From the NCBI GenBank assembly GCA_021018815.1, contig JAITYX010000025.1, positions 3,692,501 through 3,756,500 on the forward strand: a DNA stretch of 64,000 nt, read 5' to 3'. The stretch comes from Talinum fruticosum (taxonomy: Eukaryota > Streptophyta > Magnoliopsida > Caryophyllales > Talinaceae). A program made the position numbers and the translations under genes. Below the pieces are notes generated by a model that was given only the letters and a program-made list of their open reading frames with translations, was not told the DNA's origin and did not search any database. Shown piece after piece: positions 31,747-62,025 of this stretch; position 1 is the stretch's first letter, and every line of letters starts with the position of its first letter.

Positions 31747-31925
31747 GGTAAGGGTTCAAGTAAGCACCCCTCTATAGGTAAGCACCATTCATTAGGTAAG
31801 CACCACAGATCTCGAACTGTCCAATTTTCATCAAACGGTTGAAATTAATACGCATATATTTCGTTTAAAAAAATAAAAATTCAGAGAGGAGGGGGTCTTC
31901 CGGACCACGTTCATTCTCCAGACTT
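31747..31925 (+). repeat. Left terminal inverted repeat of element A
   Basis: About 180 bases pair with 35060-35254 read in reverse; the last shared part is GGAGGGGGTCTTCCGGACCA. Confidence 0.85.
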
Positions 31926-32639
31926 CCATCCAACCCTTCTCTTCCTTCTCTCTCTCTTCCTCTACCTCCTAGCTTGCGTTATCTCTCTCTCTCTCTCTCT
32001 CTCTTTCTTTCTCTCTCTCTCTCTCGCACCGGTCCCCTTTCTATCTCTATGACCAACCCCTCTCTCTAATGCCGAACCCCTCTCTATCTAGCCCCAACTC
32101 AACTTTGTTGAGAACACGACCCACCGACCAACCGACCACTCGTCATCTCTACCACCAGCTACTCCGCTTCCCTCGCTAGAAAGCACTCGTTGGATTTTCG
32201 AGCAGTCGGCCTCCCATGCCCAAACACCACCACGTCGAGAAGTCGGGTTCTCTGTCGCCCTCCACCCACTAAAACACATCTAGGGTTTGAATCGGATTCA
32301 AACTTTCTCGCTTTCCAAATCAAATCTGGGATTTTAATTTCTTTTTTAGTTGAATGGTAGTTATTTCTCATATTTGACATTCTTTGGTTTGATTTTTTTA
32401 ATTCGGGTGATTTGGTTGGATATTTGAGATCTTGATTAGAAAGTTTTTAAGCGTTTATTTTTTTGAGCTTTGGAAGTTCCTGGAAGTTTAAATTTTGGAT
32501 AGTTTAACTATATTGGCAAATTGAATTGAGTTGTATTGGGGATGTTCAAATTGAGTTGTATTGGAAATGTTCAAATTGACTTGTGGAAGTTCCCGGAAGT
32601 TTAAATGGTAGAGAAATGATCTTGTTGCTTGCTTATTAA

Positions 32640-32930
32640 TTAAAGTTGTATTGGAGATGTTCAAATTGAGAAGTATGTTGTCGTTGTGCCTTCCGGTTTT
32701 GAACGTGGTGACCTCCGAAGGGAGCTAAGTTTGCTTTAGCTCTGCATTTGGCAGTTAATACACTTGGTTTGACACTGTTTACCCTGGATGATTTCATGCT
32801 CAATTGAAGCCCAAGTACTTTGGACTCACTTTCCCAAATGAAACTGCATATATATTGAGGCATGTCAACCATGAGGGTATTCTTGATGTACGTACAAGCT
32901 TCACCCTTTAGTACAAGCTCGGTGCAATTG
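32640..32930 (+). other. Protein-like segment in element A, origin unknown
   Basis: Short open pieces look coding rather than random: KFALALHLAVNTLGLTLFTL, then, one frame over, KPKYFGLTFPNETAYILRHV. By analogy with element B this could be a captured host-gene fragment. I do not recognise the source. Confidence 0.3.
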
Positions 32931-33153
32931 TGGAAAGCTTGACCATTTGTGTAATCAACTCCACTATAAGAGGCATACCTCTTTCATTCTTTATTTCAGT
33001 TTTTGTAGTCTACTTAACACAAAGAATAGTGCAGTTATCTTTTGGCATCGTTGTGGCGAAGTGCAAAGATATAGCCCAATTTCCACAAATAAGACCAAGA
33101 ATGTACTAGTTAGTCCCTATAGCCCTTTGATAATCGCACCGCATAGATGTGCA

Positions 33154-33222
33154 AGCCTATTAGCTCAAAGGTAGAGCAATGTGTAATAACACAAAGATGT
33201 GGGTTCGAATCCCACATAGGCC
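33154..33222 (+). other. tRNA-Ile-like sequence, element A left
   Basis: It folds as a cloverleaf: acceptor GCCTAT/ATAGGC, D arm GCTC/GAGC, anticodon arm TGTG/CACA with loop TAATAA, and T arm GTGGG/CCCAC with loop TTCGAAT. The B box GGTTCGAATCC (33202-33212) is intact and TAGCTCAAAGGT is A-box-like. The loop is one base short of the CTAATAA loop of plant tRNA-Ile(AAU) as I recall it. The short loop and D arm suggest a tRNA-derived sequence rather than a working tRNA gene. Confidence 0.7.
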
Positions 33223-33697
33223 GTTTGCAACTAAGAATTCGCTTTAGACGTCGAATAAAAATGCAAAAATTGTTTGTTTCTTTATTTCTATGCGGCAGTA
33301 ACATTTTTCTAAATCAAATGCCATTTTAGGCCCTTCGTGTGTACTTAAGTGATCTTTGCATGGAGATAATGTTGTTTAACTATCCTTAGTAACAAGGACA
33401 TACTACACTGCCACCACCATACTACTCAGAGCGAGATATTGCAAGAGCTAGGAATATACATCCGTAGGCGAGCTAACTTATATTCTTTATCCTTAACAGT
33501 ACCAGGATGCCATAAAATTACTTTACTCGAAGCTCTTGTTGGAAGTTTTACATTTGATGGAAGAATGTATTTTATGTTCTATTTCCATTTCCAGGGAATT
33601 AGGGATGTTGTGGTCAGTGGGATGCTAAATGTATTTTATTTCAGGCCATATTTTTGTGTAGATGGAGATTTTGCTTTACTATATTTTAAAATCAAGA

Positions 33698-33766
33698 AGC
33701 CCATATAGGATTTGAACCGACATCTTTGTGCTGATGCACAATGCTCTACCATTGAGCTAATGGGCT
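33698..33766 (-). other. tRNA-Ile-like sequence, element A right
   Basis: The acceptor AGCCCAT/ATGGGCT is perfect over 7 pairs; it has D arm GCTC/GAGC and anticodon arm TTGTG/CACAA with loop CATCAG. The T arm has one mismatch (GTCGG/CCTAT). The acceptor has C-G where the left copy has T-A, a paired change. Confidence 0.65.
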
Positions 33767-35059
33767 TTCAAAAAATAATAACTAATTGGTGACACTGTGC
33801 ATAATGTGCAACCATATGAATTTTAGGAACCCTAAATTCCCTATGTACAACAATTTTAAACAAAGTCTCTTACAACCTCAACTCTTCCATATTTCTCATA
33901 CAAATTCAAGCATTCAAATAAATATTCAGCACACTAAAACATATCTAAGCTAAATTCTTCTTATTAACCACCATAATTCATTTGCTTATATGTTTGTAAG
34001 AAAATGCAATCAAGAAAAGAGATCTCTCATATCCAATGTCCTATGTGTGTGCGAGATAAATGGTAACCGATAACCAAGTTCATATGACCAAAGGACACTA
34101 ATCAGCCACCCAAACACCATTATAGGTAAAGCCATCAAACAAATTGCCCATAACTTCAAGTGCACTAAAAGTTCGCCGAAGATGCAGATTCTACTACAAT
34201 TGCACGTAAGATGCAGATTCCACTACAAACAAGCATCCGCAAGGAAAAATTATTCAAAAAATCTAGAGTAATGGCAATCCAATGCAAGACACAAATCCAC
34301 ATAAAGGAAGCTGCATCTTACTCAAGAACTCATAATCCTATAAGCTGCATTTTACTCAAAGGAAATGACTAGAAGTGTAAAACAAATGTATAATCCACAC
34401 AAGGGCAGGAGCAGGGCAAGGTGAGACAAGCAACAAGAATAACGAAGCATTAAAACAGCGAAGCAATAACCAAGAATAACATAAGCATAACCATTTTCTC
34501 CACAAAATTTGAACTCAATTTCACTTTCAACTAATTTCAGCAATATTTCACCGCTTTATCCACAAAATTCCCAAATTCATCCACAAAACCTCAAAATTGA
34601 GTCAACAATCATCTCCCTAAAGCAATATATTGATAACAATCATCCCTAAAGCAACATAGCCAACAAAATTTTCCCAAACCCTAAGAGGAGGAAAATTGAG
34701 AATCTTACAAGGCGAGATGGACATTACTTTGTCCTGTTCAGCGTCCGAGTAGCGGATACGAGTGGGAGGCGACCGGCGAGAGAGACAGAGAGACAGCGCG
34801 ACCAGCGAGAGAGACAGAGAGACAGATTGGGGAGGCGACGATGGCAAACGGAGCGGGAGGCGACAAGTAGGGGGAGGCGACGAGATTGAGCGGCGAGATA
34901 TGTGGCAAGCGACGCAGTAGAGAGAAAGTGGCGACCGGCGAGACAGAGAGAGGCAGCCGGCAAGGAGGACGGAGAGAGGGGGAGGTGGTTTCTGCCGGCG
35001 AGAGATCGGAAGGGGAGGCGAGAGATCGAGAGAGAGAGAGAGAGAGAGGAAGCATACTG

Positions 35060-35254
35060 GCAAAAAAAATGACGAGGGTTGGAGAATGAACGTGGTCCGG
35101 AAGACCCCCTCCTCTCTCGAATTTTTGTTTTTTCTTTTTTAAATGAAATATATACGTTTTAATTTCAGCCGTTAAGATGAAAATTAGACGGTCCAGATTA
35201 AAAGTGCTTACCTATAAAGGGGTGCTTACTTGAACCCTATATATACTTGAACCC
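35060..35254 (-). repeat. Right terminal inverted repeat of element A
   Basis: Mirror of the left end. The terminal CTTGAACCC is duplicated around a short TATATA (35229-35254). Confidence 0.85.
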
Positions 35255-36455
35255 TATATATATATATATAGAGGGAAGGGTTCAAGTAAGCACCCCTCTA
35301 TAGGTAAGCACCATTCATTAGGTAAGCACTTTAAATCTGAACCGTTTAATCTTGATCTAACGGCTTCAATTAAAAGACGTTTTTATAATTTAAAAAAAAG
35401 AAAAATAAAAAAACAAAGTTTGGAGGGGTCGGTTTGAATGCCTCAACATTTCCAAACCCAAATTCCCTCAATGGCTTCCCCCTCTTTCTCTCTCTCCTCG
35501 TACATTGGCGAGTTGCCTACCGCCCGCCTCGTCGCCGACAGCCGCCCGAGCGGCCCAGCGGCCGCTTGTCCGACAATCGCCCACCTCGCTTCCGTCTTCT
35601 CTCTCTCTCAACTTAACAAACCCGAACAATCCATCTTCTCTCTCCAGACCTTTCTCGTCGCCTCCTCTCTTTCTCGCTCGCCATCGTCGACACCGGCACC
35701 TCTATCGCTCATCCATCATCGTCCGGCCGCCCCCTCTCACTCCCTATCGCCGGCATCTTGCTCTCTTCTCGGTCTCCTCCGTTCTCTCTCATTCCCTATC
35801 TCGCCGGCTACCACTCGCTATCTCGGCCACCACTTTTGCTATCTTCCGGCGATTCTATATCCACTGAAGCCGAGATTAGGGTTTTTGCCTAATTGCACAA
35901 TTTTGCTTGAGGTAATTTCTTTCTTGTCATCTTAAAATTGATCCGTTGTTCGGAGATTCGTTGCCTTAGAAATTGTACAATTCATTTATTCCGAGTATGA
36001 TACTTGAAATTTTTTTACCTAATGGTAAGAAGAGACAAAAGTCTGTCCTAGTTTTGCCAACCCATCTTCTTGTTATGTTTGTAAGGGATGATATAATGGT
36101 ATTTGCTAGGTTTTGTTATTGTGTTGTCAAATGTCAAGAAGAAAATATTGTTGCTTTGGATTTGGTGTAGAGAGATTGTAAGTGACCTTAGAGGATATAA
36201 TGGTGTTTGTAAGTGATCCGGGCTCTCATGAATTATGCTTTGCTCCATTGGGTTTGAAATGATAGCTTCAAACCGTTAAGATACATTATTAAACTGTAGA
36301 GAAATTGCAACGGTTAAGATACACTCGTTGTACTAAAATCATGTTATAGACAAAGCTCGAAGTTGTGTTCGAGAGAGAGAAAAGAGCTGGCAGTGATGGT
36401 GGCCGGGTAATTTAGGTTTAATTATTGTACCATTTGATGCAAATATACGTGCTCC

Positions 36456-37180
36456 GGTGGCAAAATTAGATGATCCGAAGATGGGTGAGGATGTTGATGT
36501 GCTTGAAGTTGTTAGACAATTGGATAAAGCTTGTACAGAGGCTGGATTTTTCTATGTGGTATTTGCAATTAATTACACTTGTTTTTGTTCACCAACCATA
36601 ATAATATTTCTAATTTTCTCGCCCTTACGGAGAATAAAATGAGTTGCTGGTTTCTTTATTAACAAACACCGAGGAGTTGGATTTGGGTTGGGTACATAGC
36701 TTTCCAACCTGTATTTCTCCTTTGTCATCACGCATCGTACATGTTCTATTGCACTACTATCCTTTGCACTTCCTGTACAACAAAAGAAGGTTTCATTTCC
36801 GCTTATCAAAGCCTCTAATTCTATTCCACTAGTTAAATGTCTTTGGCTTATAACTCTTATGCAAATCTTAAGTTCGGATTTGTTTTTGGCGGATTAGAAG
36901 GGACATGGAATCCCTGAATCCCTTTTAAAAGAAGTTAGAGACGTAACGTGCAATTTCTTTCACGTGCCTTATGAAGAAAAACTCAATATCAAGCTGTCTC
37001 GACTACTCGGATACCGGTGATTTCCTCTAACAAGCTTCATTCTAGCATTTCAGCAAGCAATCTCAATCTCAATTCTCGCATGGTATGCTAAGTAGGACTA
37101 ACTCTTAAAATGCGAGAGGATATCAAGAAGTTGGAGATAATATAATCAAGGGTGTTCATGATATGCATGAAGCCATTAAT
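36456..37180 (+). pseudogene. Captured fragment of a 2-oxoglutarate/Fe(II) oxygenase gene (three exons with introns)
   Basis: Exon a (about 36456-36558) reads KLDDPKMGEDVDVLEVVRQL then DKACTEAGFFYV. Exon b (36898-37016) reads KGHGIPESLLKEVRDVTCNF then PYEEKLNIKLSRLLGY. Exon c (about 37117-37180) reads GYQEVGDNIIKGVHDMHEAI. GT/AG borders and phases fit (exon b ends with two bases of a codon completed by exon c). This matches the N-terminal DIOX_N part of plant 2OG oxygenases. Retained introns mean genomic DNA was captured, not mRNA. The catalytic His/Asp domain is absent. Confidence 0.75.
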
Positions 37181-37366
37181 GTAGGTTATTTTCTTGTTTC
37201 CTAATGTTTTCATGTTGTTCTATGGTTTATTGGTTATAGTGGTCTATCAAAAAATGGGCATGTGATACCTCTTTTTCCTCTCACTCTTTTTTGCAGCTTC
37301 AAGTATCAATATGCTAGACAGGGAACAAGTAAAATATTCTATCTCCTGCCATTTATGTTCCCTAAA

Positions 37367-37439
37367 AGCCTATTAGCTCAATACGGGAGAGCATTTGTGT
37401 AATGACACAAACGATGTGGGTTCAAATCCCACATAGGCT
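37367..37439 (+). other. tRNA-Ile-like sequence, element B left
   Basis: Acceptor AGCCTAT/ATAGGCT is perfect; D arm GCTC/GAGC; anticodon arm TTTGTG/CACAAA with loop TAATGA; T arm GTGGG/CCCAC with loop TTCAAAT. B box is GGTTCAAATCC. Confidence 0.7.
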
Positions 37440-38115
37440 GTTTTTAACGCACTCACTTAATGTCCGAAAGGCATTTGTGCAAAAATTATTAATAAAAATA
37501 AAAAAATTCTGCTGCAACTAAGAACTTAATGTGTTAAATTTGGTGTTTAAGCCCGGACAATCATTCTCTTCATTAATTAGTATCCTTTGCTGCATATTAG
37601 ACTTGTCTAAGACCCCGACAGTCTCAAACCGCACTACCATCAACTTTTACGCACATCGTGAGTGGTTAATCCGACACGAGCATCCATTAGCAAATTCAAC
37701 AAACCAGTTCTAGACTTGACTTCCCACCCAAAAGATTTCTCCATTAGTAACTCGATAGAAAGTTTTGATCTTTGACTCATCTATCGATATCCGTAAAAGG
37801 GAACGATGTCGTCCAGTTCACATAGTTATGTGAGGCTAGTTATGTGAGGCTTTGCAGGAGATGTAAAAAGATACTGAATATTATATGGGGTTATGTTAGA
37901 GGTGATGGTTAGAATTGGAGGTTGTTTTATAGCATGGCAAAACAAGTCAAACAAAATAACAAGCGAGTTATGAATATTCCTTTGAAACCATCCGAGTGAA
38001 ACTAAGGAAAATATGGCCTTCGAGTGAAACCGTATCCTAATCGGATGGCATGTGTCCAAGGCTGGCAATAAGCTCCGGCGCTAAAGTCTGCAATTGCTAT
38101 TAGCAAAATTATACA

Positions 38116-38185
38116 AGCCTATGTGGGATTTGAACCCATATCTCCATGCATTGTTGCACGTTGCTCTACCTTGAGCTAATAGGCT
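38116..38185 (-). other. tRNA-Ile-like sequence, element B right
   Basis: Acceptor AGCCTAT/ATAGGCT is perfect; D arm GCTC/GAGC; anticodon arm short (GTGC/GCAT, loop AACAAT); T arm ATGGG/CCCAC with loop TTCAAAT. Confidence 0.65.
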
Positions 38186-38450
38186 AAAACAAAATAGTGA
38201 TGTCCGACATCAAAACTTGACGTTTGAGTTAATAGTTGCTTTCCAATCTACCCAACTAATGTTCACAATTATTCAGTGGAAGACTTAAAAAATTGTAGAA
38301 GTCTTAAAGCAATGAGTAGAATATAAAGCTAAATGGGGATACAAATGCTCGCTGAAACAACCAGAGAAAGTACATGCAGTGATCACCGCTCGTTGAAACA
38401 ACATGAACCCAAGATGGTTATAAACTATCCTATCTCGCTCATGCTAGCTC

Positions 38451-38690
38451 GAGACTATAGAGCACATCCTATTTGAATGTGCCTATGCTAGTGAGGTTAG
38501 ATAACATGTGACTGAATGGCTCCGGATCGGCTAAAGAATGCAAACATACGGACAGGTTCCGTATTGGCTCATGCACCTTCGGAAACCCGGACGGATTGCA
38601 TTTTTGCTAGAGTGACAATTGCAGGCATGATCTATGAAATTTGGAGAATAACGAAGCACTCGAAACAACAAGCAACAAGAATAATAGAAG
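38451..38690 (+). pseudogene. LINE fragment in element B (RT zinc-binding region)
   Basis: It reads ETIEHILFECAYASEV, then after a gap and frame changes RVTIAGMIYEIWR, the usual sequence of the zf-RVT region at the end of plant LINE reverse transcriptases. Element A lacks it, so it was gained by B or lost from A. Confidence 0.6.
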
Positions 38691-39477
38691 CAAAACCATT
38701 TTGTCCACAAAATTCGAACCAAATTTCACTTCCAACTAATTTCGACGAACATTTCACTGCTTCATCCACAAAATTCCCAAATTAATCCACAAAACTTCAA
38801 AATTGAGTCAACAATCATCTCCCTAAAGCAATACATTGATAACAATCATCCCCAAAGCAACATAGCCAACAAAATTTTTCCAAACCCTAATTTTCGTGTA
38901 AGCAAAATCGATATTGGAAGAGGAGGAAAATTGAGAATCTTACAAGGCGAGATAGACATTACTTTGTATGTTCGGCGTCCGAGTAGCGGATACGAGTGGG
39001 AGGTGACCCGTGAGAGAGACGGAGAGACAGAGCGACCGGCGAGAGAGACGGAGAGACAAATTGGGGAGACGAAGACGGCAGACGGAGCGGGAGGCGACAA
39101 GTGGGGAGGCGACGAGATAGAGCGACGAGATATGAGGCAAGCGGCGCAAGTAGAGAGAAAGTGGCCACCGATGAGACAAAGAGAGGCAGCCGGCGAGGTA
39201 GACGGAGAGCGGGGAGGTGGTTTCTGCCGGCGAGAGAGAGGAAGGGAAGGCGAGAGGTAGAGAGAGAGAGAAGCGAACCGGCAAAAAAAAAAATGACGAG
39301 AGCTGGAGAATGAACGTGCTCCGGAAGACCTCTTCTCTCTAAATTTTTGTTTTTCCTTTTTTTAAACAAAATATATGCGTTTTAATTTCAACCGTAAGAT
39401 AAAAATTGAACGGTTTAGATTAGAAGTCTGCTACCTATTATTGGTGCTACCTACGAGAGTGCTTACTTGAACCTCCC

Positions 39478-39480
<3 letters not shown>

Positions 39481-39511
<31 letters not shown>

Positions 39512-39622
39512 TATATATATCGTGCCGAGTAATTCTTCCCCGATTCAACCAATACAGTAGAGATCGTTGATTGCCCTCCTCAGTAACAACAAGAAGCAAA
39601 GATCCTCAAACAGGAGAGAGAA
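39481..39622 (+). promoter_or_regulatory. (TA)n tract and short upstream region of eIF4E
   Basis: A 40 base (TA)n tract (39481-39520) follows element B. Only 102 bases separate it from the eIF4E ATG, and these look like 5' UTR (purine-rich, ending GGAGAGAGAAATGGG). So the eIF4E core promoter must lie within the TA tract or within element B. The TA tract could supply the TATA function; this is inference. Confidence 0.45.
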
Positions 39623-42600
39623 ATGGGAGTCGAGGAAATCGAGAAATCAGCCATGGCGGAGCAGGAGCAGAAGAAGGCGGAGGAGGAATTCGAGGAAGGC
39701 GAGATCGTGGAGGACGACGACGCGAAGGAGAAGCCGAGCAAAGTCGTACCCACAACTCATCCTCTTGAGCATTCTTGGACCTTCTGGTTCGACAATCCTT
39801 CTGCCAAGTCGAAGCAAGCTGCTTGGGGTAGCTCCATTCGCCCCATCTACACCTTCTCCTCCGTCGAAGAGTTTTGGAGGTGAGAATTTTTATTGTTTTC
39901 TTGATTTGGGTTTGTGTGTATACTTTTCAATTCAATGCTCATCGTGTTGAGTAATCTGACATTGGGTTTTTTAGTGTTGTCGGATCTAATTTGTTTTTCC
40001 GTTGTTTCAATACGATGTGGTTATTCTGGTTTTTCTTTTAAGTGGCTGGTGGATTTTTGAGTGTTTAGTAATCTATTTTGGAAAATGTATGAAATTGATG
40101 AACAAGTCGATTTTGGAAATGGGATCATAAGCCTATTCCTATCGCTCTCGGAGCACAATTAGGAGCAAGAATCTGACTAATAATCCATGTGCTTGCTTTG
40201 AGTTTGTCATGCATCTGTGCTCTCGCATAATCTATGAGATGGAGGTCTTACCATTTGAAAATGCAAAAAAAGGCTCCATCCTCCCAAAATTTTCTGAGAA
40301 ATGGTTAGCTATATATCACGGGACGATAATTCACTCGAAATGGATTCCCGTGCGGCACTAGCAAACTATACTCGAAAGCCTTTTTAGAGCTTGTTAGTAA
40401 GCTTTAACAATGCTTGACTTAAGCTTGAGAGAGCTAAGTAAGCAAAGACACTTAGAGAGAGAAAGTTTGGGAGAATGCTTTGTGTATTGAACTTTTGGAA
40501 TGGATGGTTGGATCTCTCTTGGATGATTCACAAATGAACCCCTCGGGGTATTTATACTTGTCCACCTCCTTAATGGACGGTGGAGATTTATTTAATCTTA
40601 CGGCCTATATTAATTCTCTAGAATCCTCCATACAAGTATCTAAGCTTCCATACAAGTGTGGAAAATTATGGAACATTGTGGAGTAGTAGAGAGAAATCTA
40701 GAAAATTTTGGAATGTTCCGGAGCGGCCCGTGACATATAACATTAGCTCCTTGCAATTTTAGAACATTAATAAGGTGCTCACAAGATTCCTCATTTTGCG
40801 TCTTTCTTATGGTAATTGGGGAAGATTTGACCTGGTAGTCAAATCCAAATGTGTACCTGAGATTCTCACGTAGGATGTTGGAAGATTTCTGCCTAGTTTT
40901 CCAAATGTCGCCAATAGCTGTGGTCCTAGATTTGTTCAATTTCTCAATCTTCGTTTGCATATGATCCTTTTCTTTTCTTCTTTTTTTTTTTTTTTTGGGG
41001 GGGTTACGTAGTGCAATTAGGGCCCCCGTATCTCTTTGGGATATTGGAGTGGTGAAGACACTTGAGGAGAATCCCGGGGGGCTCTCCCATGCTTGTAGAC
41101 GGGGATTGAATCCAGACATTTTTACAGTAGGTGGGTTGAAACTGACTATCCCTTTAGTGTTTTAATCATAACATTCCCGTGCTGTTGCCTTTTCAGTGTG
41201 TACAACAACATACATCATCCAAGCAAGTTGGGTGCGGGAGCAGATTTTCACTGTTTCAAGTTTAAAATTGAGCCAAAATGGGAGGATGCAGTTTGTGCTA
41301 ATGGGGGCAAATGGACTGTTACCTTTTCAAGGGGGAAATCTGATACTTGCTGGCTCTACACGGTATGCTTTGATGGTATTGTCAGTATAACGCAATTGTT
41401 AATGTGTGAAGGCTACATTGGCTCTAACCTACATGCATCATTTGCAGTTGCTGGCAATGATTGGAGAACAATTTGATCATGGAGATGAAGTATGTGGGGC
41501 AGTTGTGAACGTGAGGGCTAGGCAAGAAAAGATTGCCTTGTGGACCAAGAATGCTGCTAATGAATCTGCTCAGGTAATAGCACATGCTGGCATCTAACTC
41601 CGTATTATCCCTGGTAATATGTTTTGCTCATAGGTTAGTACCCCCCCACAAAGCGAAGTGTGTGGTTGTGCCGAAAGCAACAGCAATAACCTATGGATGA
41701 TTCATGGAGAGATTGCTGCTATTAAATGTTCCCTGATGATGTAACACTATTCTGTTTTGCAGATAATTAACTATTTTACCTTTTTCCTGAGATACTCTGT
41801 TTATCCTATTTTACTCTTAGACACACAAATGTGATGTCTCTCTTATTTGTTGTGTTTGGGGTTGCTAAAAATTATAGTATGAAAGCCTAGGTTTTGATGT
41901 TCCAGGTATGTTTCCTCAATTTTTCAGTTCTTCCCTCTTGTAGGCCTTTTCTTCCTCCCACCTATATATCAACCTCTAGCCTTCCTTTCTTGACTAGGCC
42001 AAACACTACCCAGAATAACATGTATCATAATGTGGGGTTGGATGTGTGTGACCATGTCAGTGCAACTGTATAAAATGCTACAGCTTGTTGTTCTATGGGT
42101 TCCCCTACACATCTTGTTCACTAACTTAGAAAGAGTTGTTTGGTGCTTACAAAGGTGCTTTGCATATAATCTGCAATTAGCCATTTGCATCGCATCCTAT
42201 TGTGTTCTTCCTAGTGCCTCGGGTGGTATTGCATATATGAATTCCATTGGAAATGAATCAATCAATCATCTTGTTATTTTAACAATTTACTATTGACTAA
42301 GTGATGTAGGATGCTATGAGAGCAATTCCTACGAGAGGGATAAATGTAGGAAGCTCTAAGATTAATTCCTACGGGAAAGGGTGGCTCACACAGAACCAAA
42401 CAATCTCACATAGAGAAACTCAAAATTTAATATCAATTCTCATTCATGATCTCCCTTCTCCAATTACTTAAAGAGGTTTATATAATTGAGAGATTACCTA
42501 ATATTATCGTAATGGACTAGACTAGAAAACTAAATCTCGATAAAATACTACTAAATATTTTTATTTTACCTATCTTAAAATATGTCAATAATAAACCTAT

Positions 42601-51002: not shown

Positions 51003-51036
<34 letters not shown>

Positions 51037-51498: not shown

Positions 51499-51865
51499 CT
51501 CCTTGGATACAAGCACTACATGTTCATAAAGGGAAAATGACTTAACTCATATATATATATATATATATATGGGAGGGTTCAAGTGAGCCCTCCCTTTAGG
51601 TGAGCACTTTTAATATGAACCATTCAGCTAAAATTTAAAGGTTCGGATTAAAAGAAGTTTTTTAATTGAAAAAAAAGAAAAATAAAAAATACTTGGAAGG
51701 GGTCGAGAACCCCCTCATTTCTTTTGACCTGTTTGTAACCTCTCTTCATCCCCTCTTCTATCTCTCTGTCGTCCGCTAGTGCAGTCCTCCCGCCGGCGTC
51801 TCGTCCGTCGTCTCTCTCTCGTCGATCCTGTCCTTTGTCTCTCTCTGCTGTTTATCCTCGCTGGT

Positions 51866-51902
<37 letters not shown>

Positions 51903-53272
51903 GATCCTGTCCATCGTCTCGCCTGAATTGCTCCTCTTGCCTCGCCTCGATGAATCACTCACTCTCTCTCTCTCTCTCTCGACTCTCTCTCGGTCGCCAA
52001 CCCATCCAACCCCTTCCCTAACCGAATCCTTAGCTTCGTCATCTCCCCTCTTCCTCTATTATTCTTCAAAATTGTCTTGCCCCTCCTCTATTTTTCTCTC
52101 TCTCGCTCTCGATTCCCTCTCTGTCTCTCATTTTCTTGCTATCTCCCATTCCTCCTCGATCGCCACCGAATATCGCCTCGGTGAGTATGATTCTCGAGGT
52201 AATTTTCTTTTTCACTTTATGTATTTGGCAGTTCAAAATTTGGTTTTGTCCGATTCCCTGGGCAAGTGTTCTAATTGATTTTGGAGTCAATTTTTGATTT
52301 TTTTTTAATGATTGTGGACTCGAATATTTTGAATTTGTAGGTATGAATTTGGGATTTTGTGTGATGTTTTGGCTTCTTGAGGATATCTCGAGCTTTGTGA
52401 AATTTGGTTAGCTTATTGAGGATATCCGCCCCAACTGCCACCAAAGAACTTGCTTATTTTGTGAAATTTGGTTTGCTTATTTTGAGGATATCTCGAGCTT
52501 TGTGAAATTTGGTTAGCTTTATGAAATTTGGTTAGCTTCTTGAGTCTTTCTAGTTGGCATGGGTAACGTGGCAATGTTCGATTTCCCATGGAAATGATAC
52601 ATTTGCAATTTGTTAACTTAAAGTATCTCGTAGATGATAGTGACTAAACCGATCATCTTGCTAAATGTCTACTTCTATTGTCATGAGGGCTAGACACCGA
52701 ATTGATTCCTAATACATGATCCCATGGAAATGATACGTTTGCAATTTGTTTGTGGTTAGCATACCCATCTAGGTAGGATTTTGTGGTACTGTTTTGTTTG
52801 ATGCTAAATGTCTACTTCTCCGGATGAAGGATATCATTTTGAATACATGGACATATCAGCTCCACTAACCCGACATATATGTTAAATATCATTTAGCCAT
52901 TTCTCTCGAGTATTCATCGTTTCAACACCCCTAGTCTTCCTAATTAAGATGTCATTGCAATACTGAAACTAAGGAGAGGTATATCATTATCTGGGAAGAT
53001 AGAAACAGCTTTCATTATCATCTTTAATGTGGCATCAATGACATTTGTGTCAATCTTGCCAACATGGGAAATCCGAACATAGCAATCTTACCCTTGCCAA
53101 CTAGAGAGACTGCTTGGAATAATGGTTGTATTAAACCAAGTTAGATGGGACTTATTATGCCATATGAATGTCCCAAAATCGGCTTCGAATTGATTCTTGC
53201 CCTCTGTTATTATATCAAGCCATTGGTATTTCGTGTTTCTGTTCTCTTTATGTTCCAATCATTTTTTTCTTT

Positions 53273-53343
53273 AGCCTATTAGCTCAAAGATAGAGCAACG
53301 TGTAATTGTACACGGAGATATGAGTTTGAATCCCATATAGGCT
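53273..53343 (+). other. tRNA-Ile-like sequence, element C left
   Basis: Acceptor AGCCTAT/ATAGGCT is perfect; D arm GCTC/GAGC; anticodon arm GTGT/ACAC with loop AATTGT; T arm ATGAG/CCCAT with one weak pair, loop TTTGAAT. The B box is weakened (AGTTTGAATCC). Confidence 0.65.
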
Positions 53344-54275
53344 ATTTATGACGCTATTTGTGCAATCGATGAGTTGCTTCGCCCAACAAGGTGAGTTGCT
53401 ACTTGCGTTGCTACTGCTCGTTGTCACTTCCAAATATTAATCAGGTCCCATTCTTATTGACATACACAAGTCAAGATTTTCCTTTCTTTCTATCAACTGA
53501 ACTTTAGAGCAAACATGTATGACTACTCCTATTTCATTTGTTAATTAGTTTATTCTACCCTTTCTTGCTTTTGGTTAAATTTTTATGAACTCTTGTCCTT
53601 TGATGGCCTTTGTTGCAACCTATAGCTGCCATGGCATATTGATCAATGTCAAAGCGGATCTGCTTTATTGTAACGCCCCCAATACGTAACCACATAAATA
53701 AATAATTAACAGCGGAAGACTTGTAAATTGGGAGACGTTACCGCCATTTTTAGAATGAAAACAAGGTAAATTCATTTGAGCCAATTAATTATTCAAACAA
53801 TTTATGCAACAATCCAACCCAAAATTTTCCTCATAGAAAATGAAAATTTCGAAACACCGAGGATCAATTGGAGAGGAATCATGAGCCAAGAGACCGAGGA
53901 AGGGATTAACATGTATGGGGTCAAGACGAACAACCGAACATCACTTCTCCGACCAGCTTTATCTTTTCTTCCTCTTTAAACCTTGGGTGTGATTGTGAAT
54001 AGTCCGCCATGCGCTCAAGTCCCTAAAAATTTAAAAACATAAAACAATAGACGTGTGAGCTAGAAGCTCGATACGTTACCGTTATAAAATAAAATTATAA
54101 TTTAAGTGCTCTTAAATCATGCATATCTTAAATCATTCTTCTTGCATAATCGGTTTGCAAACTTGTCAATTACCGATTTGCTTTTCCGATTTAGCCAAAC
54201 TTAGGACCCGTACGAGTGGGACAATCAATCATGGAATCCGACTCCTAGGGTCATTGAACCCCGAGGCGATCGGTT

Positions 54276-54510
54276 GTGAACAATTGAACGATTAACAATT
54301 GCAGTGAACAATTGAACGATTAACGATTACGTGAACAATTGAGCGATTAACAATTCCGTGAACAATTGAACGATTGACAATTCCGTGAACAATTGGACAA
54401 TTAACGATTCGTGAACAATTGAACGATTAACGATTTTGTGAACAATTGAACGATTAACGATTACTGTGAACAATTGAACGATTTCGTGAACAATTGAACG
54501 ATTAACGGTT
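54276..54510. repeat. Tandem array of 25-28 base units
   Basis: About nine units of the form GTGAACAATTGAACGATTAA lie inside solo LTR X, each centred on CAATTG. A GATTAC-type hexamer run follows at 54560-54597. Confidence 0.85.
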
Positions 54511-55220
54511 AAATGCTCGCTAGTAGGCAACGTTGTCCGAGCGTCCCCGGATCAACCATTTACGATTACGATTACAATTACGATTACGATTACGATCACA
54601 TTCATTCATGGATCGTCATAACGGTTAATGGGTCCTTTGCATGGCCAAATCAATTAAATTATGAAAAGCTTATTTATAAGCGCAATGAATTGTAAGCACC
54701 ATCTATTAATCTGTAAAAATTTTATTTTTAGTATAAATGTAAAGGCAATAACGTACCTCGGCGTGCCGAACACCTCAATTGCTGATTGTTTTTGCAACAC
54801 AATTTCAATTCGATTTCTATTTCCAAAACGAATCTACTTTCGTAGATTACTAGTCTTTTAACAATATTTATATGTATTTACGATCACCAAACTTTTACTT
54901 TACGCGTACCTATCCATATTGTTTCCTTTTGATCTCGAAATTCATACATTTCCCGAAATAAGCTATTGATGATATAGTTCGAATTCGTATATAACAATTG
55001 ATGAGTTTAATTTCCCATTCTTTTAATAAAACTCAAGTTTGATCTTTTGCTTCTATCATTTCTAGTATGTGCTTAATGTAGCCTAACCTTAATTGTAACA
55101 CTTGTTTCATCTAGTATGCCTAGATGTCCTCTTATCTGTAAACCAAATATACTTCCTACTTAAGGTGTCGGTTTGGTTTTCCAATTTTCTAAAAATTTTG
55201 GCAGAGTTTCGTTTGAAACA

Positions 55221-56414
55221 TGTAACGCCCCCAATCACCATTACTTAATAATCCCCTCATTAGGGACTATTACGTAAGGTCGCAGCGGAAGGTAACGATC
55301 GAAGGCGCTACCGCCGTCCTAAAAATAGGACAAGGCTAAATAATTTGAAATAAAATGAAGTACGATTTGTGCATCCACTTGTTATATTTCTAATGATACT
55401 TGTTAGGAGTAACTACTTATTACCCAAGTAGCTAGGTCATCCCAAACACGAGTAACCTGGTTTAGCAACGTAATATTTATACAACCTAGACTTTTGTTTA
55501 ATCCACAAAATAATATGCAACGTACGGTAATTCCCAAGGTCATACCTAGACCCCGGTTGAGGGTAAAATCACTGTGAGCGTCTATGCACCTTCGAATTGC
55601 GGATGCAATGTGGCTGACTAAGGTTTGCCTTCGTCGGACTTGGTAAATGGTAGATTGTTCACCAATGCTTCTTTCTAAAACAAAAACAAGTAAAATATTT
55701 CGAAGAATGAGTCGAAACTCAGTACGAACATTCCTGCATCTGTAAAACAACTTTGAAAATATTTTAATTGAGCGCGCGCATTTCAATTCATTTTAGTTTG
55801 AAATCGGGGGAGAGAATATAAGTAAAACTTGCTTGCCTGGTTATTATCCGAAAGTGGAACCCCTTGGTAACCGATACGGTCCTTGAACAGTGCTCACCCC
55901 CGGCCGACCGAGAACCCGAGTTGACACCGCGCGGGTATAATTGGTGGGCCTAAGCCCCGATAATTGATAATTGGGCGGGGACCACTTAATTAGGTGGCAA
56001 AACTTGCCTTGTAAATGATTCATTGTTATTTGTATATATATAAGAAATGCTGAGATTTGATGAAACATGTGAGTTTTCGAAAGGTACGAGCAATGAACGT
56101 ACTCGAACCGAGAATATTTGTTTCTCCCCTTTTGCAGAAATTTGAGTCACCAGCTATTCGGCAACGGAAGTGGCCTCGATTCTGTTTAAAATGGATTTCT
56201 AGGGTTAATAATGTTTTCTTGAGTTTTAATGCTTGAGTTTGTATAAGCTTTAACAATTATTTCATTTTCTCGCATTTATTACGTAATCAATTAAACTATG
56301 TTTTGGTACATAACTTTATCGCATTAATTCCATTTCGAACACCGACTACAACGCATATTAAAGAAGTTAACGACATCTATGTAATTCAATTCATTAGTTA
56401 CTTGGATTGAAAAT

Positions 56415-56493
<79 letters not shown>

Positions 56494-57848
56494 GTACTTA
56501 TTTCTAGTTTACTCTTTACTTCTCCCTTCATTACATTTGAAATCCATAGTTAAGTAATCAGTTAACCCATCAATTGCCTTTCCCTAGAAAGGTTCCATAA
56601 TCTACTAAATTGCTCAAACTCATGCATACACCATTTTAAGGTCATAAGCGTTGTTCTCCCGACAAGCTTCACATTCACAACCACCATTAGGTATGCTTAA
56701 TGCTCAATTATTTTCCATGCCTGTACACTTGCACATTATCGAATTTCAACTTCTACGTACACATTCCCCTTTGTTTGCTCAATATAACGATTTTCAAAAT
56801 GTAACAATTCCACCAAATTGTTCAATTCGATAATAAAACATCCTTAATCTCATTCACTAGTTCATAATTTCCCAAAAGGAGTCGCATTCATTCTCATTCG
56901 CACAATCGGTTCATCAAAATACCAAACTTAAATCCTCTGTACCAATTCGAATTTTTCCCAAATTAATCTTTAAGTTCACTCCACAAACATGTCTATAAAT
57001 CCGATAATTCAATTTCACAACTACAATAACCGAGTAAATGACAAAGTGCAATAATCTAGGGTTTGAGGTTTTACCTTCGAATTCACGGAGGAGGAGTCAA
57101 GGAGAGGATGTTGGGGGTGCTCGGTTGCTCCGGCGACTGCGGGGCAGCACCGGCGTCGAGCTCCGATGGCCGTGTTGCGGGTGGTGGTTGGCGGCGAGTG
57201 GGTTGCCGCGGTGGGGAGGCAGGGCAACTGCCCGTGGGCGAGCGGCAGCGAGAGAGAGGGAGAGCGGTGGCCGGTGAGGTGTCGGCGTCTCCCCGACGAC
57301 ACCGGCGTCGGCTCTCGCCCGGCGTTAGCGGCGGCCGGTCGCCGGAACCGGCCCGACCGGGGAAGAAGGGCGTGGAGAGGCAGGGGAGATGCGAGAGGAG
57401 GCAGGGGAGGGGAGAACGAAGGAGCACGGGAGAGAGAGGACGAGCTCGAAATGTATTTTTAAGTCGTCTAACATTCCGGAGAATTCTCTCTCGGATTTTT
57501 CTTTCAAAATATCAACGTCACTATTTTTATTTTGTTTTCATTTATTTATTATCTTATTATCTGTCTGATTTTATGTAACTTGCTTATATTCTTACGGTTA
57601 TTTTATTTTGTTCGTGTTATTGCTAATAATGTTGTAAATAAGTTATACGATCTGTTTTCAAATGTAATGCTTCGTTTAAATTTACAATTGCTAATATGGA
57701 GTGTTATTGGAGGCCACTTCGTTACCTTAGCTGCATAACACACGGATAAAAATAAATTAAATATAGAATACCGAATTGAAATGCACGCGCTCAATGAGAT
57801 TTGTCTCGTAATTGATAAGATAATGTAATTTAAGGTCGGGCTATTACA
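55221..57848. mobile_element. Solo LTR Y, same family as the one at 5055
   Basis: The ends are TGTAACGCCCCC and GGTCGGGCTATTACA with the perfect duplication AAACA (55216-55220, 57849-57853). It aligns along its length with 5055-7898: shared start, the AATGAGTC-AAACTCAGTACGAACATTCCTG block, and the GGCAACGGAAGTGGCCTC block. It has a (TA)n tract at 56417-56490 and a GC-rich island at 57070-57440. Confidence 0.85.
56417..56490. repeat. (TA)n microsatellite
   Basis: About 37 copies of TA within solo LTR Y. Confidence 0.95.
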
Positions 57849-60403
57849 AAACATGATCTAAACATTAGGCTAAAAGCCTTAAAACCTGCATAAAATCCAC
57901 AATAAAACTCAACGAGCCATATGCGTGGAGTACACAACTCAATGGTCACGCGCCAAAGTATATTTACAACCATAAAAACCAAGTTTCACACCAGTATATA
58001 AACCAAGTTACAATCTCGTCAAGATTCTCATTTTTTGTGCTCATGAACTTTTCGATTTTTGACCACGACATATATATATATAGCTAAGGCTCTGGTTAAG
58101 CAATTTAATTGTAGAAATCCCGATTATCGGGAAATGGCTCCATACGATTAATTCCTTTATGAGTACTACCAATAATCAATTAATGATTTAACGCGTCGTA
58201 GACAAGATAGTGAAACTCATTAATATTTCAACCTGTTAACATTTAAATATTTTGAAAAGTGTAGACGATGAACGTACTCGAGGGGTTGTTCGTTTTTCTT
58301 TAAATATCGCTTTACGTTCTTTTCTTCGAACATGTCGTTTCCGTCGCTTTTCGTTTTCGTAAAGTAATTTTATTCAACATTCTACATTCTAAACTTCTTT
58401 CCAATCCAAAACTTACTTTAAATAGTATCATGAGCCTTCTTTAGAATTGTTGCACACTTAATTATTCACATCTCTTTATAATACAAGCACCTACCGACTT
58501 ATCTTCCGCTCCTTAGCAACTTACGTCAACAAAATCTTCAATAAGTTCAACAAACCCTTAATTTCATAGCCACTTACATTCTCCTTCATATCTCATTCCC
58601 AAAGTTAACATAACCCCTAATTTTTCAGTTAATTCATACCAATGAGTACTCCTCCATACTCCATCAAAGTTTCACATTTCAAATTCGTTCACTCTTGCTT
58701 GACTAAACCAATATTCAATCACATTAATTTGCTCAAGTTTAGCATATATATACACATAAATTCAATCTTCCATCAATCTCTAATTACACAGCTCTTGAAG
58801 GCAACTCACCACATTATATATATATGCTCTTATTTCAATCATCCTAAATATCTTTCTTCCACAACCAAATAACTCATTCATACTCATATAGAAGTTGAAC
58901 AAGGAAATTTATAATTATAACTAAACCCAAATTAATTTCCAATTCCATATCAACATATAATAAATCCTAAATCCAATTTTTTTTAATTTCTCCCAATATT
59001 CTTCCAATTCCACCATAAATTAATTCAATCCTCACATTTACTCGCCTAACTATTCAATTACAACATAAATTTAAGATAGAATTTACTTAGAATTGAGGAT
59101 TAGAGATATACCTCAAAATGGGTTAGAGGTGGAAATGGGTGGTAGTGGTTCGTTGGTGGAGATTCGATGTCCGGGCGGCGATGACGGACGTTGGTCGGCG
59201 GCGTCGGCGCCGGTCGACGACCGGGGACGACGGCCAGGGTGGCACGACCGAGCAGCAGCAGCGAGGGCGGCTTTGCCGCTGGCGCGAGACAGGGAGGAAA
59301 GAGAAGAAAAACTTCGTGCGGGAGCAGGGCAGCCAGTGTACACCGGCCGTGGCTTGCTGCGGCGGAAGAAGTCGGCGATCGATGGCCGGTGGCGCAGTAG
59401 CGGCCGGCGAGGCTCGTCACCGGTGGCAGCAATGGCGGGGAGGGGAAGGTGAGGAAGGAGAGATGAGAGGAAGAATGAAGCGGAGATGTTAGGCTTCCCC
59501 TTCACCGACTTATTATCCCCGATAATTCTAGCACCCTCCTCCCTCTTTTTTTTTTTTTTCTTTTGTATATCTTAATATTTCTTATATTTTTACTGTTTCT
59601 ATTACCACATGGTTAAATGTATAACTATACGTTTGGCTAAATTATATTTGCTATCATAATTAAAATACTATATATATTTTATTTTATTTTATTTTATTTT
59701 TGCTTGTCATTTTAATTTGTTCGGGTTTGGAATAAATTTTTCATTATCCAAAGATATATACATTCTGTTGTTATTCATGATTATCAAATTTGTTCGCATC
59801 TTTTATTTCAATTTCATATTGTGTGCATCTAACTCGCTCTTAAATAATATTAAGACGATAAAATGCAAATTTAAAATAACTAATTACGATTAAGTTTCGG
59901 GGTGTTACATTTATGAGGTAACTTTTCGGGGTGGCCTATGTTTGTCACACGAGAAGCATGAAACAACAGACTTATAGTTTCAGAGGATTTCATGTGTCGC
60001 CATCTTTGTACTAAAGGAAACTTCGTAATAGGAACTCAAATGAGTTTTCCGACAACAAAATTCGTTGCAGAAACTAGCTTTGAATATTAGAGATTCTTTT
60101 CTTTTCTTCTCGTGGATGTAATCTTTCTACTTCTAAAATCCGCCTGTTTTGTAGCCCGATCGTGTATTATTTGGCTGATCATATTTGACATTTGCTTTTC
60201 ATTAATGGAATCTACTTCATGTGCCAAACAAGAACATAGCAACGCAATTATGCAACATTTTTTCTAAGTGGAGGTAGTCTCGACTAAGAAAGATTCTTAG
60301 CAATTAGCACAATCAACTTGTTCTTAATATATGCATAATCACCTAATTTGAAATTAGTATTCGGAAGTCACAGCGAAGCAACGACTCACCAAATTCAACA
60401 AAT

Positions 60404-60475
60404 AGCCTATGTGGGATTCAAACCCATATCTCCATGTACAATTACATGTTGCTCTACCTTTTGAGCTAATAGGCC
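60404..60475 (-). other. tRNA-Ile-like sequence, element C right
   Basis: Acceptor GGCCTAT/ATAGGCT has one G-T pair; D arm GCTC/GAGC with the loop one base longer; anticodon arm CATGT/ACATG with loop AATTGT; T arm ATGGG/CCCAC. Against the left copy (GTGT/ACAC), the anticodon stem carries a paired G-C to A-T change. Confidence 0.65.
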
Positions 60476-60866
60476 GGCAAAAAAGGACTAAAACACAAAC
60501 AGAACATAAACAGAGAAACACAAATGGCTTGATAGAACAGAGGGCAAGAAACAACAGTTGAAAGTAGCATAGCTGAAAGAGTTAACAAGCCCAGCTCCTA
60601 AGGCAATTGAAAGAATACAAGGAAATTAGCATTAGACGTTAACAAGTATTGCTTTAGCAATATGTAGAAAGATACAATGTTCACACTCTTGAGCCAATTA
60701 ATACAGGCATGAAGACATATCACATACCCTAGCCATTGGTATTTAAGCAATGGCTATAGATACCACAATTTAAGATCACTTCACTATTATACCACAAGAT
60801 CTAGATTAGTTCTACGCACATTAACTTCCATAAGCAATCTGCTCTTTTTTGTTTTTGAAGTAAAAG

Positions 60867-61020
60867 CTAGCGTAAGCCTTCATTCAACCAATAAATTAAG
60901 TTTTTCAGCATAGATAGCAAGATCTCGGGGCAATTCCCGGACCAAGTTCTACTACTTCTCTCAACTAAAGCATGCTTGGCTAGCACATGGGCAACCTTAT
61001 TACAACTTCTATTTGCAAAT
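60867..61020 (-). pseudogene. LINE fragment in element C (RNase H C-terminus)
   Basis: The reverse strand is open to a stop at 60867 and reads NRSCNKVAHVLAKHALVERS, then CPEILLSMLKNLIYWLNEGL. The N-x-x-AH-x-LAK-A pattern is the end of the RNase H domain of plant LINEs. A T-rich run follows in the - strand complement direction, fitting a 3' end. Confidence 0.65.
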
Positions 61021-62023
61021 AAAAAGAAACAGACTCAAAAATAGAATAAGCAATCTACTATGAATAACTTCCAATTTACTTGTTTATGCTCCCCTCCCCC
61101 TCTCCTATGTCTCAATGGCAACAGGCCATCCTCACATATAATATTTCTAAAATATTCAAATAGACACAATTCATCACTAGTTTAGTGAGCTTGAAATCCA
61201 CAAAAATCATCATAAGTTTCATAATCCACAAAATCCAAAATCCACAAGATGAGCAAATTAATCACCAACTTCAAATGTCAATATATAAAAAAGCAATTAA
61301 AAGCATTTTAATCCACAAAATTAAGAGAAAATAGAAACAAGATGAGCAAGAAAACGTACTCGTAAAACATCTCCGAAGTGGCTTGATTCCGTTGTCTATT
61401 TCTCGGTGGCGGTAGGCTGCTGGGGGAGAGTGGGTGTGGCTAGAGATAAAGAGAGAGAGTGGGGGGGATCGAGAGAGAGACACAAAGAAGGGATTCGAGA
61501 GACAGAGGAATTGCAAACCTAGATTTAATTGAAACTCTTACTTGCGATTTCCGATGGGGTCGTCCTCCTCAACGAGGGAGGAGAGAGAGATAGACAAGGC
61601 AGGACGGAGGGTGGCCAAGAATGGGCTGGTGAGGTTGGCTTCCAGGCAGCCGGCGAGTTCGAGAGAGGGTAGCCACCGAGTAGAGAGGACGAATGAGCGA
61701 GCACAAACTAGCGAGCGCCGGGAGAGGAACGGAAGAGAGAGGGCTCGAGAACAAAGGCCGGCAGTGAGAGGAGGCCGGAAGGTAGATGCTAGCATCGGGG
61801 AGAGCTCCGACGAGAGAGGAGGAAAAACGTGAGAATGAGGGCTCAGCAAAAGCGTCGAGACCCTTCTTCTCCTTCTCCGATGAAAAAAAATATTTTTCCT
61901 TTTTTTTAAATTATAATTTTCCTTTTTAATCTCAACCTTTGATTGAAAGTTTAATGGTTTAGATTAAAAGTGCTCACCTAATGGGTGAGTTCCCCTAAAG
62001 GGGAGGGCTCACTTGAACCGTCC

Positions 62024-62025
<2 letters not shown>

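Follow-up and report, generated by a model that had tools for sequence, protein, structure and literature searches.

How did tRNA-like sequences come to lie as opposed pairs inside DNA elements of Talinum fruticosum, and what could have kept them there? The window, by which we mean the whole stretch of DNA analysed here, comprises 64,000 nt (GCA_021018815.1, contig JAITYX010000025.1, positions 3,692,501 to 3,756,500) and contains the following features, given with the strand where one applies (TIR, terminal inverted repeat):

31747..35238, element E1, non-autonomous, 3.5 kb, without a transposase match, TIR motif at either end
31747..31925, forward strand, E1 left TIR
33155..33221, forward strand, E1 left tRNA-like unit, apical loop AATA
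33699..33765, reverse strand, E1 right tRNA-like unit, apical loop ATCA, acceptor pair compensated, one mismatch in the T stem
35060..35238, reverse strand, E1 right TIR
35255..35272, (TA)n microsatellite, in the sequence linking E1 and E2 head to tail
35273..39477, element E2, non-autonomous, 4.2 kb
35273..35410, forward strand, E2 left TIR
36397..37183, forward strand, captured 2-oxoglutarate-dependent dioxygenase gene fragment with introns, in E2
37368..37438, forward strand, E2 left tRNA-like unit, apical loop AATG
38117..38184, reverse strand, E2 right tRNA-like unit, apical loop ACAA
39303..39477, reverse strand, E2 right TIR
51571..62025, element E3, own sequence about 4.2 kb, with a nested insertion of 6.24 kb
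51571..51700, forward strand, E3 left TIR
53274..53342 (Rfam match 53273-53344), forward strand, E3 left tRNA-like unit, apical loop ATTG
53669..59909, nested TG...CA unit in E3 with the 5-bp direct repeat TTTAT, outside the family
55221-57848, second TG...CA unit within the first, repeat AAACA, solo-LTR-like, outside the family
60405..60474, reverse strand, E3 right tRNA-like unit, apical loop ATTG
61890..62025, reverse strand, E3 right TIR
31752 (forward), 35224 (reverse), 35278 (forward), 39461 (reverse), 51575 (forward) and 62007 (reverse), GGGTTCAAGTRAGC at the element ends

E1 to E3 belong, as non-autonomous copies, to a Mutator-like (MULE) family of the FAR1 type that resides in (TA)n. 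Their TIRs are 120-180 bp long, those of E1 being 79% identical over 178 bp. An earlier note on this DNA had described terminal motifs common to the three elements, and indeed each of the six ends has GGGTTCAAGTRAGC with at most one mismatch; a scan of the window that tolerated three mismatches returned 12 occurrences versus 7.3 expected, and the remaining six differ at 2-3 positions. The (TA)n reported there on either side of the elements is directly observed in the sequence and borders both sides in all three. The proposed limits of E3 (51571-62025) are upheld, and those of the other two had to be corrected: E1 ends at 35238 on the right, with a truncated second copy of the TIR tip at 35241-35254 just past its right TIR, and E2 spans 35273-39477. 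As the nested TG...CA units of E3 total 6,241 bp, its own length is about 4.2 kb. Open reading frames of at least 60 aa number 25 in E1, 22 in E2 and 48 in E3; 8 of these were scanned against Pfam. With a Pfam cut-off of 27.3 bits, the E2 dioxygenase fragment matches DIOX_N positions 10-34 below threshold (20.2 bits) and positions 35-66 above it (28.4 bits). A third piece, recognised by eye, is without a Pfam match, and comparison of the first piece with solved structures returned nothing notable. E2 thus carries a host gene fragment between its TIRs and in this respect resembles the Pack-MULEs, which contain captured, intron-bearing fragments of this kind.

Six tRNA-like units are present, and the opposed arrangement of two per element described in the earlier note is borne out, since they are convergent in all three elements. 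In a scan of the whole window five of them exceed the gathering score of the Rfam tRNA model, and the sixth (E3 left), searched alone, reaches 42.6 bits. A model (R1) was built from the six window units and excludes the other 60. By construction it gives the six 78-94 bits, and nothing else in the window exceeds 13.4 bits. When the six arms were compared in all 15 pairs, the tRNA-like block aligned in 15 (in one partially) and the TIR in 13. The identity of the block is 67-91% with a mean of 77%, and that of the bases directly outside averages 35% and 31%. A third short block also recurs among some of the 15 arm pairs.

A genome search with the TIR yielded 41 matches, 4 of them within the window; 20 loci were fetched, 17 matches were left out, and at 3 of the 20 loci a single end was within reach. 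Units occur in 19 of these 20 loci, which establishes the defined family beyond the window that the earlier note had postulated. That note had also named tRNA-like blocks lying outside the elements as often as inside as the finding that would speak against it. All 35 units in this sample are inside elements and none is in the 95.9 kb of flank, a count made after removal of 9 of 44 model matches (13-18 bits), namely seven antisense to counted units and two in L042, one of them in flank. Starting from the units instead (for two types, 857 and 404 initial candidates, of which 40 each were scored), all 11 loci adjoin TIRs of the family. Six E1L-type loci of this set were picked from 100% matches, and four of the five E3-type loci were picked for two close matches facing each other, so that pairing in those four is no independent evidence. 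One TIR end was seen in L055, L058, L059, L061 and L070, and L070 has no (TA)n.

MULEs generate target site duplications of 9-11 bp, and as the flanks of the family copies are mostly (TA)n, a duplication of this length is not visible here. Both ends were located in 17 of the TIR-first loci; by our reading, (TA)n borders 10 of these on both sides and 16 on at least one side, the exception being L040; L046 has (CT)n on one side. The number of units varies as well: L041, L054, L066 and L067 have three each, L056 and L057 have one and L051 has none, and two units are therefore no requirement. Pairs in the same orientation were found in L049, L061 and L062. Segmental duplication in place of separate insertions was considered and rejected, because among 57 outer stretches there is no common flank beginning at the element; the dispersed repeats common to 18 pairs differ in orientation or in distance from the TIR. 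Separate insertions, as had been proposed, are thus the better account.

The earlier note had asked for a full-length copy with a transposase, and transposase domains do occur inside copies with the same TIRs. FAR1-type Mutator transposase sequence is present in 7 of the 20 TIR-first and in 3 of the 11 unit-first loci. Pfam detects the FAR1 domain in L049, L051, L055, L057 and L058, the MULE domain above the curated cut-off in L055, L057 and L058 and slightly below it in L051, and the SWIM domain in L056, L057 and L058; one piece of L049 has none of these. Tblastn adds transposase in L059, L060, L061 and L062, and the same type of search with three transposase pieces of the family gave no match in the window. 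Nine transposase loci bear units; in eight of them every unit found is located 3' of the transposase and antisense to it, and in L060 units flank it on both sides. A Helitron or retroelement identity of the family is ruled out by the TIRs together with the transposase. Long TIRs and a MULE-type transposase in same-ended copies mark the family as MULEs, whose TIRs typically measure 100-500 bp (PMC3310237).

The closest known systems share much of this anatomy. MuTAnT with AutoMuTAnT is a TA-targeting family of Medicago truncatula that is likewise Mutator-like, with long TIRs, (TA)n sites, a transposase copy resembling Jittery and mostly non-autonomous copies (PMC4486113). However, 90% of the MuTAnT copies measure 200-300 bp, the tip is GGGGTTTGCTAGAACA as opposed to GGGAAGGGTTCAAGTAAGC in the Talinum fruticosum family, and the accessible portion of that article mentions no tRNA-derived unit (PMC4486113). 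SaTar elements of guayule, rice, sorghum and citrus are non-autonomous MULEs flanked by TA or other microsatellites, and they show an un-nested head-to-tail joining like that of E1 and E2 (PMC5907723). A microsatellite on both sides, the trait of SaTar and MuTAnT, is found in all three window elements. In contrast, the non-autonomous SaTar families span about 0.2-1.9 kb, and the available main text, by whose description they are compared here, does not contain the word tRNA (PMC5907723). TAFT of maize and Micron of rice are TA-flanked as cited in PMC4486113 and PMC5907723, and the available parts of these citing papers do not mention a tRNA unit. With Jittery and other FAR1-type MULEs the family has the FAR1, MULE and SWIM domains in common, a likeness by domains. 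We know of no Jittery/FAR1-type MULEs or Pack-MULEs with resident tRNA-derived units. A text search of the literature with the TIR strings gave no match, and the accessible text of the literature consulted, including PMC4486113, PMC5907723, PMC3310237, PMC9168764, PMC2888827, PMC9526063 and PMC7385966, describes no MULE with such a resident unit. In viral contigs, a pattern search for the TIR tip gave 31 stretches, taken as chance, and one for the tRNA unit 0 matches. What appears to be new is the tRNA-derived module in TA-targeting MULEs, with known families compared by description. The novelty claimed for the family as a whole is therefore reduced to this module, since insertion in (TA)n and the superfamily itself are already known (PMC4486113, PMC5907723).

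Most sampled transposase-free copies are two arms around a short centre, and each arm begins with the TIR and ends with an inward-facing unit of about 68 nt. With the nearer end as reference, 42 of 46 units in complete elements face inward, and nine more were left out of this count, having an end beyond reach. The idea that the interval from TIR to tRNA-like block is a constant inverted repeat did not hold, as the arms vary among and within elements.

The units are 65-80% identical to the tRNA-Ile(AAU) gene of the Talinum fruticosum genome itself, with none above 80%. Judged by this similarity, tRNA-Ile(AAU) is their ancestor, and the isoleucine type assigned earlier was correct. A three-hairpin fold is predicted for 54 of 55 units. 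In the minimum-energy folds of the 41 distinct units the anticodon-arm loop has 4 nt in 31, 6 nt in 8, 5 nt in 1 and 7 nt in 1 (45, 8, 1 and 1 in all 55). With their anticodon arm closed by 4 nt, most units should be unable to decode. According to these models the cloverleaf, acceptor and T arm are retained, whereas decoding is lost in most units. In an alignment fitted to the model, changes on both sides of a pair were counted in 36 cells across the 41 distinct rows, versus 14.4 in shuffles, none of the 500 reaching 36; an unfitted alignment of six rows gave 7 further pair types versus 8.8 in shuffles (489 of 500 as high).

We think that these observations may be accounted for by an early capture of a tRNA-Ile gene by the transposon family. 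The units would then have been retained across many rounds of transposition, while the surrounding DNA turned over, because their fold was useful. Of the anatomy and the family membership as described we are highly confident, and the family probably has hundreds of copies. That the units were kept through selection on their fold is suggested by the sequence comparisons, and we incline slightly towards it; for the explanation overall, a MULE family whose tRNA-derived units were retained for a useful fold, we see even chances. An inward-facing unit would be sense to transcripts coming in from the nearest TIR, and its likeliest use would therefore be at the level of RNA or chromatin. Either RNase P and RNase Z, which process tRNA ends, could cut at the unit, or the unit could act as a TFIIIC-type roadblock. 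In both cases incoming transcripts would end before the centre, or before an antisense run through the transposase gene, which might result in less double-stranded RNA and less silencing. This putative mechanism in particular is doubtful. The wider proposal, that the family remade a tRNA gene into a selected non-coding cis or RNA module which either cuts or stops TIR transcripts or serves as exchange joints, is put forward tentatively.

Alternatively, an ancestral MULE could have captured the tRNA-Ile gene like any other gene piece and carried it in its arms as a functionless passenger. E2 demonstrates gene capture by this family, and L051 contains a transposase and no unit. Also, within subtypes the unit changes as fast as its flanks (0.948 versus 0.936 and 0.927 in nine E2R-type units, 0.961 versus 0.961 and 0.912 in three of the E1R type), so that single copies show no added constraint. 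However, across subtypes the unit is still alignable and the flanks are not, compensatory changes exceed those in shuffles, 31 of the 41 distinct units depart from tRNA in the same manner with their 4-nt loop, and the orientation is predominantly inward. We consider a mere passenger rather unlikely.

Retention for a useful fold also competes with the view that the units provide short stretches of homology for swapping arms and centres between elements, through template switching or homologous recombination in repair, which would make their conservation a by-product. Arm families are found in several combinations (family 0 with 2, 3 and 4; family 3 with 0, 7 and 14), and the junctions are often near the units: among 19 hand-picked pairs the common block begins at most 104 bp upstream of the unit in 10 and stops at most 91 bp beyond it in 10. 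In addition, identical copies of the E1L 67-mer were found at 10 further places in the genome, out of 40 scored, and E1L-type units are identical over 67-81 bp where the flanks differ, with which recent exchange fits too. But in the other 9 of the 19 pairs homology extends 184-526 bp beyond the unit, and exchange alone does not explain the compensatory changes and the 4-nt loop. As a full account, exchange at the units seems improbable to us.

A similarly low probability is given to transcription by Pol III from internal A and B boxes, yielding a small RNA or opened chromatin. The six window units agree with the consensus motifs at 10-12 of 12 positions (A-box) and 9-11 of 11 (B-box), and as a raw count, 15 of 55 units have CAA within 12 bases upstream. 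Terminators, on the other hand, are not enriched, as T4 follows within 30 nt in 11 of 55 units versus 12.7 in shuffles.

That the units are SINEs or separately inserted tRNA copies lying in the elements by chance is very improbable. Like tRNA-derived SINEs they are tRNA-derived, with A and B boxes, and have sharp ends. Yet they reside within TIR elements in both samples, no body or tail is common to the flanks of different subtypes, and independent dispersal was not seen. The search for an empty site with joined unit flanks also gave no match; where both flanks of a unit matched in one locus, with gaps from -30 to 400 bp admitted and self-matches counted, the gap was 67-90 bp. Functional tRNA-Ile genes spread by the transposon are scarcely conceivable despite the cloverleaf and the descent, since ARAGORN calls five window units and assigns an amino acid to none, the one 7-nt loop among 55 units is GACTAAT, unlike CTAATAA in the Talinum fruticosum gene, a readable anticodon is missing, and the divergence from that gene is too large.

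tRNA-derived sequences are classic in retroelements, as in SINEs, and not in cut-and-paste transposons. The units of this family are resident, frequently occur in pairs and are altered in the anticodon arm, and nearly all copies fetched by their TIRs carry them. Genome annotation should take into account that such units score above threshold with the Rfam tRNA model. For the MULEs themselves, the finding raises two questions: do plant DNA transposons employ tRNA processing or TFIIIC to keep convergent transcription and silencing under control, and are the arms and gene pieces of MULEs exchanged at defined internal joints?

Three elements with terminal inverted repeats (TIRs) are found in the window, and the layout that the earlier note had described for them is confirmed with slightly corrected boundaries:

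31747-35238, E1, TIRs at both ends
35273-39477, E2, TIRs at both ends
51571-62025, E3 (with a nested insertion), TIRs at both ends
41099-41476, Pfam IF4E domain, eIF4E gene
2330-2671 and 14901-15290, SH3_retrovirus and Retrotran_gag_2 domains, copia-type retroelement fragments
18213-18273 and 24221-24281, related 30-base tandem repeats (CCGCACRGTAGRCCGTGCG...) in two places, 6 kb apart

The claimed shared terminal motif, GGGTTCAAGTRAGC, is present at all six ends with at most one mismatch, and about 80-180 bp of the ends can be aligned, with 70-80% identity in most comparisons. (TA)n flanks E1, E2 and E3 on both sides, and each element contains two convergent tRNA-like units of about 68 nt, as had also been claimed. 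R1, a covariance model built from these six units, gave no further match above 13.4 bits in the window. In the 15 pairwise comparisons of the six arms, i.e. the stretches from TIR to unit, the tRNA-like block recurs in all 15 (one partial) and the TIR in 13, and some pairs also share a third short block, located at 630-800 bp from the end; TIR and tRNA-like block alone recur generally. The block is 67-91% identical among the six units, compared with mean identities of 35% and 31% in the bases that adjoin it.

E1 and E2 stand head to tail on one (TA)n, like the modular arrangement described for SaTar elements (PMC5907723). The stretch 35224-35262 contains the tip of the E1 right TIR and, behind it within this (TA)n, an additional short copy of that tip (CTTGAACCCT); the copy may reflect slippage or be a trace of a joining step like the one proposed for SaTar arrays. 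The eIF4E start codon, as assigned by eye, lies about 147 bp past the E2 end (39477-39624), which places the two-element array in the eIF4E promoter region. The E3 interior holds two nested, solo-LTR-like TG...CA units with common TGTAACGCCCC starts, at 53669-59909 (5-bp repeat TTTAT) and 55221-57848 (AAACA). Besides eIF4E, the window contains plant snoRNA R71 (Rfam) and a bromodomain, a content in keeping with plant DNA.

With a plant tRNA-Ile(AAU) sequence as query, 29 of 40 scored genome matches reached at least 93% over 73-74 bases, and ARAGORN assigned two inspected loci as tRNA-Ile(aat). The units are 65-80% identical to this gene, and many start with GCCTATTAGCTCA, the 13-mer that follows a single 5' G in the two loci, which bears out the isoleucine-type likeness noted earlier. 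With R1, the genuine tRNA-Ile genes reach 46.6 bits, less than any unit that was counted (60-94 bits). A three-hairpin fold is found in 54 of 55 units, and in the minimum-energy fold the anticodon-arm loop has 4 nt in 45, 6 nt in 8, and 5 and 7 nt in one each (31, 8, 1 and 1 of the 41 distinct sequences); the sole 7-nt loop, GACTAAT, belongs to the unit at 5067+ of genomic locus L040. Among the 41 distinct units, 94.3% of pair cells are standard, and two-sided changes occur in seven pairs and in 36 cells, the latter compared with 14.4 cells in shuffles (0/500 as high), in an alignment that was fitted to the model and whose row kinship inflates such counts. The unfitted six-row alignment gives five pairs (7/500 shuffles as high) and eight cells (3/500), with no excess of further pair types (489/500).

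A genome search with the E1 TIR yielded at least 41 matches among the best candidates scored, four of them inside the window, and the best 20 outside were fetched together with 7 kb on the inner and 2.5 kb on the outer side. R1 detects 35 strong units (61-91 bits; nine matches of 13-18 bits are left out) in 19 of these loci, all 35 inside elements (94.1 kb) and none in the 95.9 kb outside, where "inside" extends to the stretch end for L055, L058 and L059, which have one end within reach. Units as often outside TIR elements as inside, which the earlier note had named as an argument against the family, were thus not seen. Both ends were located in 17 loci, and left and right units face each other in 13 of them; L041 and L054 carry a third unit beyond the facing pair, L049 two units in the same orientation, L056 and L057 a single one each, and L051 none. 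Outer flanks have dispersed repeats in common in 18 pairs, never as a shared flank, and the loci therefore represent separate insertions, as had been proposed. The right flanks of L046 and L043 carry (CT)n or a TTG/ATT-rich repeat in place of (TA)n; a non-(TA)n side is likewise reported for SaTar elements. In L055, at about 7000-9290, one family end adjoins a further TIR, behind which comes FAR1/transposase sequence belonging to that TIR; this makes a second tandem array.

The reverse search used the left unit of E1 (857 candidates, 40 scored) and the right unit of E3 (404 candidates, 40 scored), and 11 loci were taken on the unit alone: six E1L-type, all 100% identical, and five E3-type, four of them selected because two hits faced each other. 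A family TIR stands at the expected place in ten; the ends of the remaining one, L060, were located in L073 and L074, giving 11/11 (one TIR end seen in L061 and L070). With 14 units in the E1L-type and 11 in the E3-type loci, the total is 66 (window 6, TIR search 35, unit search 25), all in or at TIR elements. L060 with L073 and L074 forms a palindromic family element: its inverted arms measure 2.7 kb and are 97% identical, it contains four tRNA-like units and a central transposase sequence, and family TIRs stand at both outer sides.

In complete elements, 42 of 46 units are oriented inward, as judged from the nearer end, and two of the other four sit almost at the element midpoint. Arm families combine differently between elements: among 19 elements having left and right units, family 0 pairs with 2 (8 elements), 3 and 4, family 3 with 0, 7 and 14, and family 4 with 0, 16 and 20. 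In 19 hand-picked unit pairs, the upstream limit of the shared block is no more than 104 bp from the unit in 10; on the far side, the block extends 0-91 bp beyond the unit in 10 pairs and 184-526 bp in 9.

Transposase sequence occurs in 7/20 loci of the TIR search (L049, L051, L055-L059) and 3/11 of the unit search (L060-L062). As its Pfam domains, FAR1, MULE and SWIM, stand in copies with family TIRs, the family is a FAR1-type MULE. Of the full-length copy with a transposase that had been sought, the part found is transposase sequence inside family copies; the family transposase pieces have no match in E1-E3. Units lie 3' of and antisense to the transposase in 8/9 transposase-bearing loci that have units. 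E2 contains pieces of a gene for a 2-oxoglutarate-dependent dioxygenase; they cover adjoining parts of the DIOX_N profile and have an intron between them (10-34, 20.2 bits, below the cut-off of 27.3; 35-66, 28.4 bits). A search with the first piece gives 14 relatives at E ≤1.2e-4, and three of these carry the name isopenicillin N synthase-like dioxygenase. The pieces represent host gene capture, of the same kind as in Pack-MULEs. On the claim that no described family has this combination: TA-targeting MULEs are already known, and the open-access literature searched yielded no description of a DNA transposon family in which tRNA-derived units are resident.

We hold it very probable that anatomy and family are as described, and that the unit fold is functional in whatever way we think somewhat favored. 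Four results count against selection as a simple account. Within subtypes, unit divergence is about that of the flanks. The sequence of the E1L unit is the same across contexts with differing flanks, a pattern that exchange explains no less well than constraint does. No enrichment of Pol III terminators is seen at the units. Units may also occur singly, in threes or with equal orientation.

RNase P and RNase Z cleave tRNA folds within transcripts, recognizing the acceptor and T arms independent of the anticodon. The loss of decoding, the retained acceptor and T arm and the inward sense fit such a role, or that of a TFIIIC roadblock. Long Mutator TIRs are reported to harbor promoters (PMC3310237). 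Transcripts would enter the element from the TIR, the unit being sense to each inward transcript, and its fold would be cleaved by RNase P/RNase Z, or the unit would act as a TFIIIC roadblock. That the unit cuts or blocks inward transcripts is a tentative and rather doubtful reading; in transposase-bearing copies, the unit would then halt transcripts that would otherwise enter the transposase in antisense direction.
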